Shown in pieces: positions 2,598 to 61,085 of a stretch of DNA of 64,000 nucleotides (position 1 is its first letter; every line of letters begins with the position of its first letter). The notes below the pieces were generated by a model. The model saw only the letters and a list, made by a program, of their open reading frames with translations. It was not told the DNA's origin and did not search any database. Both the position numbers and the translations under genes were made by a program. Source of the DNA: Acidobacteriota bacterium (GTDB taxonomy: Bacteria > Acidobacteriota > Blastocatellia > UBA7656); assembly GCA_040754075.1 (NCBI GenBank), contig JBFMDH010000012.1:62001-126000 (forward strand). The letters are read 5' to 3'.

Positions 2598-2661
2598 GGA
2601 TTCAAGAATCAGGATTCAGGATTCAGGATACGGGATTCAGGATATAGGATTCAGGATTCAG
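2598..2661. repeat. Heptamer tandem repeat block, AGGATTC family (left arm)
   Basis: About nine degenerate copies of the 7-bp unit AGGATTC (variants AGGATAC, AGGATAT) lie immediately upstream of the lysC ATG. An inverted block of the same unit sits at 2763-2797, so a transcript through the hom-lysC spacer could fold into a long stem. The block begins one base from the lysC start codon and leaves no room for a normal ribosome binding site. Confidence 0.9.
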
Positions 2662-2762
2662 AAATGAAGGCGGTAGTAACCATGAGAAAAGAACAATGAA
2701 TAACAGGTCATTTTGAATTGCTATTGAATTATGTTCGTTTTGAAAACCCATGTGAACTACTA

Positions 2763-2797
2763 CCTGAATCCTGAATCCTCTATCCTGATTCCTATTC
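2763..2797. repeat. Heptamer tandem repeat block, AGGATTC family (inverted right arm)
   Basis: Read on the minus strand this is AGGAATC AGGATAG AGGATTC AGGATTC AGG, the same unit as the block at 2598-2661 in the opposite orientation. The TAG stop codon of hom (2792-2794) shares its last two bases with the first repeat unit, so the repeat begins at the end of the coding sequence. Roughly 100 bp of non-repetitive spacer separates the arms. Confidence 0.88.
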
Positions 2798-4378: not shown

Positions 4379-4936
4379 ATGCGAATCACCAAGGTTTATA
4401 CAAAAAGCGGCGATGGTGGCGAAACTTCACTGGTTGGCGGCGAGCGCGTCAGCAAAGCTTCGCTGCGCGTTGATGCATACGGTGATGTCGATGAGTTGAA
4501 TTCGGTCATCGGTCTGGCGCGCGCCAATTTGCAGGATGCGGAAATAGATGAAACCCTGAGTCATATTCAAAACGATTTATTTACTCTTGGCGCAGACCTC
4601 GCAAGCCCCGCCAGTGTGGAAGTCCCGCGCCTTACCGAAACCTTTATCGCCGCCCTTGAAACCTTTTCCGATAAATTTTTAGCAGAACTGGAACCACTTA
4701 AAGAATTCATCTTGCCGGGCGGTTCAGCAGTTGGCGCAACGCTTCATTTAGCGCGCACCGTCGCGCGTCGCGCCGAACGCAAAGTCGTCGCCCTCAGTTC
4801 GCAAGCAGAAATCAACGCAAATGCAATTATCTATTTGAACCGTTTATCCGATTTACTGTTTATTGTGGCAAGGCTGGTAAATAAACGAGCAGGCGTACCG
4901 GAAAAAATGACCGATTTTAGTAAGAGGAAGAAGTGA
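4379..4936 (+). CDS. pduO: PduO-type cob(I)alamin adenosyltransferase
   Basis: Transfers the adenosyl group from ATP to cob(I)alamin to make coenzyme B12. The N-terminal motif [14 protein letters not shown] is the ATP-binding signature of the PduO/MMAB family, followed by [13 protein letters not shown] and, near the C-terminus, an arginine-rich helix ([11 protein letters not shown]) and NRLSDLLFI. At 185 aa it has the normal single-domain length. The ATG at 4379 is preceded by a short leader from a strong promoter. No cobalamin riboswitch (no B12 box) could be seen upstream, which is notable because many such genes carry one. The TGA stop codon lies within the first unit of a heptamer repeat that fills the gap to accD. 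Confidence 0.95.
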
Positions 4937-4964
4937 TGAGCGGTGAGTGATGAGTGATGAGTAG
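4933..4964. repeat. Heptamer tandem repeat block, AGTGATG family (left arm)
   Basis: Units AGTGATG, AGCGGTG, AGTGATG, AGTGATG, AGTAGGG. The first unit contains the pduO stop codon. It pairs with the inverted block at 4980-5010 over a spacer of about 15 bp, giving a stem of roughly 25-30 bp. Confidence 0.9.
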
Positions 4965-4979
4965 GGTTCTACTTGATTT

Positions 4980-5010
4980 CACTCATCACTCATCACTCAT
5001 CACTCATCAC
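4980..5010. repeat. Heptamer tandem repeat block, AGTGATG family (inverted right arm)
   Basis: Four perfect copies of CACTCAT plus a partial CAC, the reverse complement of the left arm. The block ends six bases before the accD ATG (TAAAAA then ATG), so no Shine-Dalgarno is present between repeat and start codon. Confidence 0.92.
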
Positions 5011-5016
5011 TAAAAA

Positions 5017-7257: not shown

Positions 7258-7302
7258 AGTAATGAGTGATGAGTAATGAGTAATGAGTGATGAGTGATGA
7301 GT
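7258..7302. repeat. Heptamer tandem repeat block, AGTGATG family (left arm)
   Basis: Six units alternating AGTAATG and AGTGATG begin five bases after the folC stop codon. It is the same family as at 4933-5010, and an inverted block closes the spacer at 7393-7441. About 90 bp of unrelated sequence lies between the arms, in which I see no gene. Confidence 0.9.
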
Positions 7303-7392
7303 TTCGGAAAGGTTGAAATCTGAAGTAGGAACGTTGAACGAGTAACAATAGCCTGGCATTAAGATATTTATTCTTCTTACTTGATTATCTCT

Positions 7393-7441
7393 ACTCATCA
7401 CCCATTACTCATCACTCATCACTTATCACCCATCACTCATT
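7393..7441. repeat. Heptamer tandem repeat block, AGTGATG family (inverted right arm)
   Basis: Seven units of ACTCATC with variants ACCCATT, ACTTATC and ACCCATC. The block ends about ten bases before the ATG of the Nudix gene, in the context GCTAAAAAATATG, nearly the same junction as at accD (CACTAAAAAATG). Confidence 0.9.
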
Positions 7442-51898: not shown

Positions 51899-51929
51899 GA
51901 AGGCAAAAGGTAAAAGGTAAAGGCAAAAA
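51899..51929. repeat. Heptamer tandem repeat block, AAAAGGY family (left arm)
   Basis: Units close to AAAAGGC/AAAAGGT between the 2Fe-2S gene start and the next gene stop. An approximately inverted block lies at 51982-52003. It is a different unit from those at 2.6, 4.9 and 7.3 kb. Confidence 0.8.
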
Positions 51930-59447: not shown

Positions 59448-61085
59448 ATGAAAAGCGACCCGGTAAAACTCGAAATATTTAAATCTCTCTATTCATCGGT
59501 AGCCGAAGAGATGGGCATCTCGCTTAGGCGCTCGGCATTTTCACCGAATATCAAAGAACGCCGCGACTATTCCTGCGCGGTATTCAATCAAGATGGCGTG
59601 TTAATCGCGCAAGGCGACCATATGCCCGTGCATTTGGGGTCGATGCCGATGTCCGTGAAAGCTGCGCTTGAAACGATTAAATTTTCGCCCGGTGATGTCG
59701 TTGTCTTAAATGACCCGTATGCAGGCGGCACGCACCTCCCGGATGTGACAATGGTTGCTGCGGTGTTTGCCGAAAGCAAAAGGCAAAAGGCAAAAGGCAA
59801 AAGGCAGCCTGAATCACCACGTCACCTCATCGCCTCTTCACCTCTTCATCCGCTTTTCTATGTTGCCAATCGCGCGCATCACGCGGACATCGGCGGCGCA
59901 ACGCCCGGTTCGATGGGACGCGCTGATGAAATTTATCAGGAGGGGTTACGGATTCCTCCGGTGCGATTGATGATTGATGGAAAGATAAACGACGATGTGA
60001 TGCGTTTGATTGCTGCCAATGTCCGCATACCGGAAGAACGCGAAGGCGATTTAACCGCGCAACTCGGAGCTATCGTCACAGGGCAAACCCGCCTATTGGA
60101 GATTGTCGAACGTTATGGATTCAAGGAAGCGAATTTCTTTGCGTCGCGGTTGGTGGATTACACGGCGGAGATGATGCGGCGGGTGATTCGCGAATTGCCC
60201 GATGGCGTTTATGAGGCGGAGGATTTTTTAGATGATGATGGCTACGGCGATAACCCGGTTCGCATAAAGGTTAAAATCACCATTCAAGGTGAGCGGGCAA
60301 CCGTGGATTTCACTGGAAGCGCCTCGCAGGTTCGGGGCCCGATTAATGCGGTTGAAGCGATAACCGTGTCGGGCGTTTATTATGTTTTTCGCTGTTTGAT
60401 TCCGATAGATGTACCGGCGAGTTGGGGGATATTGGAACCGATTGAGGTGATTGCGCCAATGGGGACGATTGTCAATGCCTGTCCGCCTGCGCCGGTGGCG
60501 GGTGGAAATGTCGAAACGTCGCAACGCATCGTTGATACGTTGTTGCTGGCTTTGTCGAAAGCCTCACGGAAAGTTCCTGCGGCAAGTCAGGGAACGATGA
60601 ATAATTTAACCATCGGCGGCATTGATGAACGCGCGAACAAACCGTTTGCTTATTATGAAACGGTTGCGGGCGGGATGGGTGGGCGCGATGGATTCGTTGG
60701 CTTGGATGCGATTCATACGCACATGACCAATTCATTGAATACGCCTGCCGAAGCGATGGAATATGCTTACCCGATGCGCGTGAAAAAATATGCGATTAGA
60801 AAACATTCGGGCGGCGAAGGTGAATTTCAGGGCGGCGATGGGGTTGTGCGCGAATTGGAACTACTCACCGACGCGCAGGTGACGATTCTTTCTGACCGGC
60901 GGAAAACCAAACCTTATGGACTGAACGGCGGAAACCCTGGCAAGGCTGGCAGGACGTTGTTAATTACCAAAAAAGGCGAGCGGGAATTAGCAGGCAAAGA
61001 TTCGGTTTTTGCTAAAAAAGGTGACCTCGTGCGGGTCGAATCACCCGGCGGAGGTGGTTATGGAAAACGGAGAAAGCGTCAGTGA
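59448..61085 (+). CDS. hyuB: Hydantoinase B/oxoprolinase family protein with repeat insertion
   Basis: Beta-type subunit of ATP-dependent hydantoinase/5-oxoprolinase. Family stretches are RRSAFSPNIKERRDYSCAVF, LNDPYAGGTHLPDV, FYVANRAHHADIGG and FSDRRKTKP-like tail. Between LPDVTMVAAVFA and FYVANRAHH lies an extra segment of about 28 residues (109-136) that is coded by a heptamer repeat (59774-59806) and following degenerate units. It keeps the reading frame. HyuA is not in the window. The downstream small membrane gene overlaps by 26 bases. Confidence 0.9.
   Translation: MKSDPVKLEIFKSLYSSVAEEMGISLRRSAFSPNIKERRDYSCAVFNQDGVLIAQGDHMPVHLGSMPMSVKAALETIKFSPGDVVVLNDPYAGGTHLPDVTMVAAVFAESKRQKAKGKRQPESPRHLIASSPLHPLFYVANRAHHADIGGATPGSMGRADEIYQEGLRIPPVRLMIDGKINDDVMRLIAANVRIPEEREGDLTAQLGAIVTGQTRLLEIVERYGFKEANFFASRLVDYTAEMMRRVIRELPDGVYEAEDFLDDDGYGDNPVRIKVKITIQGERATVDFTGSASQVRGPINAVEAITVSGVYYVFRCLIPIDVPASWGILEPIEVIAPMGTIVNACPPAPVAGGNVETSQRIVDTLLLALSKASRKVPAASQGTMNNLTIGGIDERANKPFAYYETVAGGMGGRDGFVGLDAIHTHMTNSLNTPAEAMEYAYPMRVKKYAIRKHSGGEGEFQGGDGVVRELELLTDAQVTILSDRRKTKPYGLNGGNPGKAGRTLLITKKGERELAGKDSVFAKKGDLVRVESPGGGGYGKRRKRQ
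59774..59806. repeat. Heptamer tandem repeat inside hyuB, AAAAGGC family
   Basis: Four near-perfect AAAAGGC units, translated as a Lys/Arg/Gln-rich stretch (ESKRQKAKGKRQ). It is the same unit as in the gap at 51.9 kb. The bases after it (to about 59855) contain CTCATCG and CTCTTCA-like degenerate units. Confidence 0.88.

Follow-up and report, generated by a model that had tools for sequence, protein, structure and literature searches.

Facing arrays of 7- and 8-nt repeats recurrently found in one loop of HyuB-like proteins of Blastocatellia

The hyuB-like gene of the window (the whole 64,000-nt stretch of Acidobacteriota DNA analysed here) carries an in-frame insert composed of two facing arrays of short repeats, one of heptamers and the other of octamers. 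Arrays are present at exactly this loop in at least 35 distinct Blastocatellia hyuB genes, with about 20 different words and mostly as facing pairs, and in the genomes that we checked the word found in the loop is one that the host also carries in tandem elsewhere. We propose, with a probability of about 0.55, that dispersed convergent 7/8-mer repeats are copied in trans into permissive protein loops, where they are filtered for frame.

Results

The window hyuB-like ORF encodes a 545-aa protein corresponding to Hydantoinase_B (Pfam PF02538, E-value = 2.6e-201), with fold matches to the structures 9h03_A (TMq 0.88), 6yra_B (TMq 0.88) and 5l9w_A. TRF identified the left array of the insert with a period of 7, 4.4 copies and a 100% match (Table 1); no period-7 array of this strength was found in dinucleotide shuffles of 464 kb. 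The right array reads TCACCACG/TCACCTCA/TCGCCTCT/TCACCTCT/TCA, and its octamer also forms perfect arrays elsewhere in the same genome (AAGAGGTG). The preliminary description of this DNA had placed an in-frame repeat insert at this position, which the TRF array, the frame open all through the insert and the short turn of the solved homologues (below) confirm. It had also recognised the AAAAGGC heptamers, but had read the second half as CTCTTCA-like heptamers, where we find an array of the octamer TCACCTCT. Counted from the valine in VFAESK up to PLF, the loop comprises 32 codons (96 nt). In relatives with an empty loop it measures 27-36 nt, so that the gain is about 60-69 nt. The earlier figure of about 84 bases (28 codons) was thus too large, and the explanation attached to it, a length divisible by both 3 and 7 that would keep the frame, falls with it.

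Table 1. Repeat arrays and associated features in the window
Feature	Position	Strand	Basis or remark
hyuB-like gene, 545 aa, Hydantoinase_B, carrier of the insert	59448..61085	+	profile match and fold matches
Residues 100-106, beta strand preceding the insert	59745..59765	+	AlphaFold model m2899cd9ac95e
Array of 4.4 perfect GCAAAAG (= AAAAGGC) heptamers (left array); coding strand G-rich	59776..59806	+	TRF
Spacer of 7 bases, GCCTGAA, between the hyuB arrays	59807..59813	+	sequence
Degenerate array of TCACCTCT octamers (right array); coding strand C-rich	59814..59848	+	sequence
Residues 137-143, beta strand following the insert	59856..59876	+	AlphaFold model m2899cd9ac95e
Intergenic dyad (AGGATTC)n, 101 nt, (CCTGAAT)n	2599..2793		fills the space separating two genes
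Intergenic dyad (AGTGATG)n, 16 nt, (TCACTCA)n	4932..5011		lies between a stop codon and the start of an accD-like gene; z of -10.3 for the RNA fold
Intergenic dyad (AGTAATG/AGTGATG)n, 90 nt, (ACTCATC)n	7258..7440		sequence
Single degenerate AAAAGGC array	51900..51928	+	sequence

In the AlphaFold model of the protein (pLDDT 82 overall, pTM 0.84) the insert is located at the tip of a beta-hairpin and is predicted to be disordered, residues 111-131 having a pLDDT below 50. At this position the solved homologues 6yra_B and 7hk5_A exhibit a tight turn of few residues. The insert peptide has a net charge of +5, in agreement with the basic loop of the preliminary description. The insert is not palindromic and does not fold as RNA (z = -0.54).

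Homologues of hyuB were collected from 39 relatives, 396 genomes of the phylum and named genome records, and their loops were cut at the same anchors. The words found there include heptamers (AGAAGGC, AGGGGTC, AGTNGTC, AGTAAGC, AGGTGTC, GATTGCG and others) and octamers (GGGGACAA, GGGGAGAC, GAGGGAAA and others). On the coding strand the two-armed hyuB loops all present the G-rich arm first and the C-rich arm second. The convergence of array pairs has one likely exception, a reversed case at L295. When mapped on a tree of the HyuB proteins from which the loop had been removed, these states require at least 30 changes of word or of empty state, with word classes assigned by hand. Two empty genes (L061 and L071), for instance, stand next to a gene with a loop of 186 nt (L062). 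Two genes of the same genus (L002 and L003) share a word and differ by 21 nt, i.e. three heptamers, and a close pair (L010 and L037) differs by 24 nt, i.e. three octamers; both steps fit a change in copy number, whereas the different words of different genera are consistent with copying from other parts of the genome. The repeats had been described as mobile or expanding: copy-number steps are seen within a genus or a close pair, and movement is what the word changes suggest. Within single species no insertion event was observed, and the genomes nearest to the window belong to other genera, a distance at which entry, replacement and conversion look the same. Relatives do carry the same loop with unrelated DNA, which the preliminary description had named as grounds against an insertion; yet this DNA is each time another pair of 7-/8-mer arrays, drawn from the host vocabulary in the tested genomes, and therefore indicates recurrent entry or replacement rather than the contrary.

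Array-bearing loops vary from 57 to 186 nt in length and from -1 to +9 in charge, with a mean charge of +4.6 (35 loops) against +0.8 in 61 empty loops. In the array loops the frame that is read has 0.127 charge per residue, compared with 0.086 in the other five frames. Loop length is a multiple of three in 108 of 108 hyuB loops, as open frames must be. Where perfect arrays would place a stop codon in frame, it is broken by a variant unit in 6 of 6 cases, while 14 of the 18 off-frame stop triplets are intact; this count is partly circular, as open frames were the selection criterion, but it shows an adjustment of the arrays to translation.

An array census of 1.184 Mb out of the 7.58 Mb of the host genome (G000) revealed 104 arrays of period 7, whereas no other period between 5 and 15 was represented by more than 15 arrays. 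Some dozen words are used again and again. Among 48 neighbouring array pairs 43 are convergent, with the G-rich strand pointing inward (pairs of different words being counted by base make-up), and 35 of these 43 are inverted copies or near copies of one word; some pairs combine different words, some are nested, and some arms stand alone. The excess of tandem 7-nt units, their dispersal and their convergent pairing, by which heptamer repeats are recognised, are thus all found in this genome. The spacers between arms are mostly unrelated among loci, although those of different words are weakly similar to each other (9 of 300 shuffles as good). An origin of the spacers as remnants of the native loop is not supported, 287 of 300 shuffles being as similar to empty loops, and the greater likeness of arms within a dyad than between dyads is weak (11/16). 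A 43-nt right arm is common to three loci of a composite family, with AGGATTC outside and AACGATG-like units inside. Homology of spacers, as would mark a moving unit, was found only in this AGGATTC/AACGATG composite and in one duplicated region. A composite repeat with mixed 7-mer arms in the same order occurs at L224 (7708-7860), L230 (19833-19985), L238 (18690-18820) and L253 (15102-15266), and is the leading candidate for a mobile unit.

Several other loci deserve mention. The three intergenic dyads of the window span nearly whole intergenic gaps, their arms lying near stop and start codons, and a strong hairpin is found at positions 4925-5015. At three loci of the same genome (L188, G000:C1:7107; L189, G000:C2:12373; L191, G000:C2:372217) AAAAGGC arrays directly follow likely start codons and give basic N-terminal extensions ahead of apparent signal peptides. 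Another locus (L211, G000:C27:64889) exhibits nested arrays, AAAAGGC being outermost, then GATTGCG and CCTGAAT, and TTTTTGC again on the outside. In a different genome, a 60-nt array of the window's octamer TCACCTCT (L286, 2483-2543, G003:C79) lies 165 nt from a Y1 transposase gene. Exact triple arrays were also seen in contigs filed as viral in IMG/VR (L312-L365), with 12 stretches of AAAAGGC and 42 of GATTGCG; these contigs may be proviruses or bacterial DNA filed in error.

The correspondence between the loop and the host vocabulary was checked in four hyuB-carrying genomes with three words (AAAAGGC, AGAAGGC and GGGGTCA). The window shows no excess of AAAAGGC as a single word (23 occurrences against an expected 20.6). 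Its tandem form, however, is enriched: runs of about three exact copies give 27 matches at some 17 places in G000. In the comparison of the 39 genomes, nine contain tandem AAAAGGC, and G000 has the most (24 matches). Three exact tandem copies of AGAAGGC occur in four of the 39 genomes, namely G004 (54 matches), G006 (18), G016 (81) and G008 (1), and the hyuB genes of both G004 and G006 carry this word. Similarly, tandem GGGGTCA is found in four of the 39 genomes (G003 with 20 matches, G009, G019 and G013), and the hyuB gene of G003 carries it. The reversed-pattern controls for the three words gave no match except one in G013 for GGGGTCA. The agreement of the hyuB words with dispersed families of their hosts indicates that the word in the loop is not simply built from local sequence. 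The sharing of words between genera amounts to 9 of 63, where letter-shuffled words average 1.0, and none of 2000 shuffles scored as high. In samples of about 80 kb each, G018 and G022 showed no period-7 arrays and G033 a single A/T-rich one, and the hyuB loops of these three almost array-free genomes contain no arrays.

As the preliminary description had held, the repeats do enter coding sequence, and hyuB is not their only such site. A CobN/magnesium chelatase-like ORF of the same genome (L287, G000:C23:50432-52753), unrelated to hyuB, contains in-frame repeat inserts at two sites. The first site carries (AGTCTGG)4 and the second (G000:C23:51487) AAAAGGC followed by (TCACCTCT)4, the same hybrid pair as in hyuB. 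In the sister genus G001 the same two sites of the CobN-like gene are occupied by GGGGAGAC-type octamers and by AAAAGGC-like units with TCTCCCCG-type octamers, respectively; in three relatives of the same family (L292-L294) both sites are empty.

Discussion

We regard the hyuB insert as probably one of the short repeats dispersed throughout the genome, in each of which two arrays of 7-nt or 8-nt words face each other across a spacer. Its arrays would have been copied in trans from elsewhere in the genome; template switching or recombination between array-like sequences, during replication or repair, would be the most likely route. Anything tolerant may serve as a landing site, be it an intergenic gap, a protein N-terminus or a disordered loop, and the tip of the HyuB hairpin would be one such site, at which arrays may have been received or exchanged many times in Blastocatellia. 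Selection would keep only the in-frame and stop-free versions, and between events the copy number would shift by steps of three units. The insert peptide is then probably a tolerated, near-neutral loop. Of this reading, the architecture of the arrays, their recurrence at one site, the words particular to each genome and the keeping of the frame are observed, while the copying, its route and the neutrality of the loop are inferred.

One competing explanation is local slippage, in which each lineage would independently have expanded a short native sequence of the loop into an array by duplication. The 21-nt and 24-nt steps of the two close pairs are what slippage would produce, and the word GTNGTCA, found in some Pyrinomonadaceae, resembles the codons for PVVS in empty relatives such as L050. 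The hyuB words are, however, dispersed families of the host, and slippage alone gives neither an inverted second arm nor a hybrid pair common to hyuB and the CobN-like gene; we consider it unlikely. Slightly better placed, yet also unlikely, is the transposition of a REPIN-like hairpin unit by a Y1/HUH transposase. Inverted doublets at several loci fold into strong hairpins (z from -8 to -10), and every array-rich genome has Y1_Tnp genes, which are almost missing from the array-free family f7, a loose correlation between Y1 genes and arrays. On the other hand, the window's own insert is unfolded, neither a tag nor a spacer is conserved, the five Y1 matches of G033 go with almost no arrays, and only 2 of the 20 Y1 genes are found with an array at 300 bp or less, close to the expectation from array density, so that a linkage to RAYT was rejected. 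Selection for a long basic HyuB loop, for which repeats are merely the easiest raw material, would account for the basic nature of array loops and for a read frame somewhat more basic than the other five. It agrees poorly with the wide variation of these loops in sequence, length and charge, with empty genes adjoining carriers, and with the occupation of intergenic gaps by the same arrays, and we give it about as little credit as slippage.

A telomerase-like reverse transcriptase, adding G-rich repeats at both ends of a break before joining, would explain the convergent polarity, the hybrid arms and the single arms, and DRT10 is known to make tandem-repeat cDNA in bacteria (PMC12632851). It is nevertheless very improbable: no RVT_1 match exists in G001 (98% complete) or G008 (100%), both of which have arrays, including in hyuB, and an RVT_1 origin was rejected on these grounds. 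Ku-dependent joining was likewise rejected, Ku being absent from G000, G001 and G003. Neither reverse transcriptase nor Ku is required. Short repeats can be misassembled, but an artefact of assembly or sequencing is hardly credible when the same architecture appears, in frame and with stop-avoiding variants, in independent assemblies of dozens of species. More speculatively, a copying activity other than a reverse transcriptase, and not previously described, might write G-rich words of 7 or 8 nt inward from both sides using a genome-specific vocabulary, overwriting earlier arrays even within genes; we rate this a long shot beside the copying in trans of dispersed repeats favoured here.

The repeats belong to a known bacterial kind, the dispersed convergent heptamers. 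The STRR are the dispersed heptameric repeats of heterocystous cyanobacteria. Described words include GGGAATC in Xanthomonas and GGGGAYT in Nostoc (PMC4692102), and TAACTGA in Beggiatoaceae and cyanobacteria (PMC4679880). Convergent heptamer pairs have been reported in Xanthomonas (70 and 75 cases), and two species were not found to have their long repeats at the same genes (PMC4692102). The present repeats share with those heptamers (PMC4692102, PMC4679880) the 7-nt unit, often in about four copies, and a genome-wide, mostly intergenic scatter. They differ in that one genome reuses about a dozen words and has octamers as well, in words that change with the genus, and in one protein loop that is repeatedly hit. 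G-tracts with G-quadruplex potential characterise the GGGAATC subclass only, and GGG is absent from the words here (AAAAGGC, AGGATTC and AGTGATG).

A close parallel comes from Nostoc, where the P6b stem-loop of the tRNA-Leu(UAA) group I intron (PMC4476775) is one site at which the repeat class was replaced repeatedly and where indels of seven nucleotides occur. There, however, the host is an RNA stem under a pairing constraint, whereas here it is a protein loop under a frame constraint, with many more words. The Rickettsia palindromic elements (RPE) are similarly inserted in frame in unrelated genes and translated, their DNA being palindromic and the genes metabolic (PMC10969869, citing Ogata 2000). 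They form families of about 150 bp, in contrast to the present repeats, which have no common consensus but only a period and a polarity; the window insert, moreover, is no palindrome. REPINs and REP doublets (PMC3116915) also are inverted doublets with a spacer that fold into hairpins and are dispersed extragenically, but the arms here consist of 7-mers, Y1/RAYT linkage is lacking (2/20) and no common tag was noticed. MITEs have a conserved unit, terminal inverted repeats and a target-site duplication; the spacers here are mostly unrelated. A limited search of open full texts found no papers on such repeats in Blastocatellia. Here these known features come together at one protein loop, with the further finding that the word in this loop matches the host vocabulary.

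Conclusion

Dispersed heptamers have been known for decades in several phyla, with no known way of spreading. One conserved protein loop now provides a record of their changes of state, at least 30 of them within one bacterial class. Since the conserved coding sequence flanking the loop fixes the alignment, the spread of the arrays, their choice of word and their rate of turnover become measurable, which is hardly so for intergenic copies. Together with Rickettsia, this is a further clear case of repetitive DNA supplying new peptide segments to ordinary enzymes.
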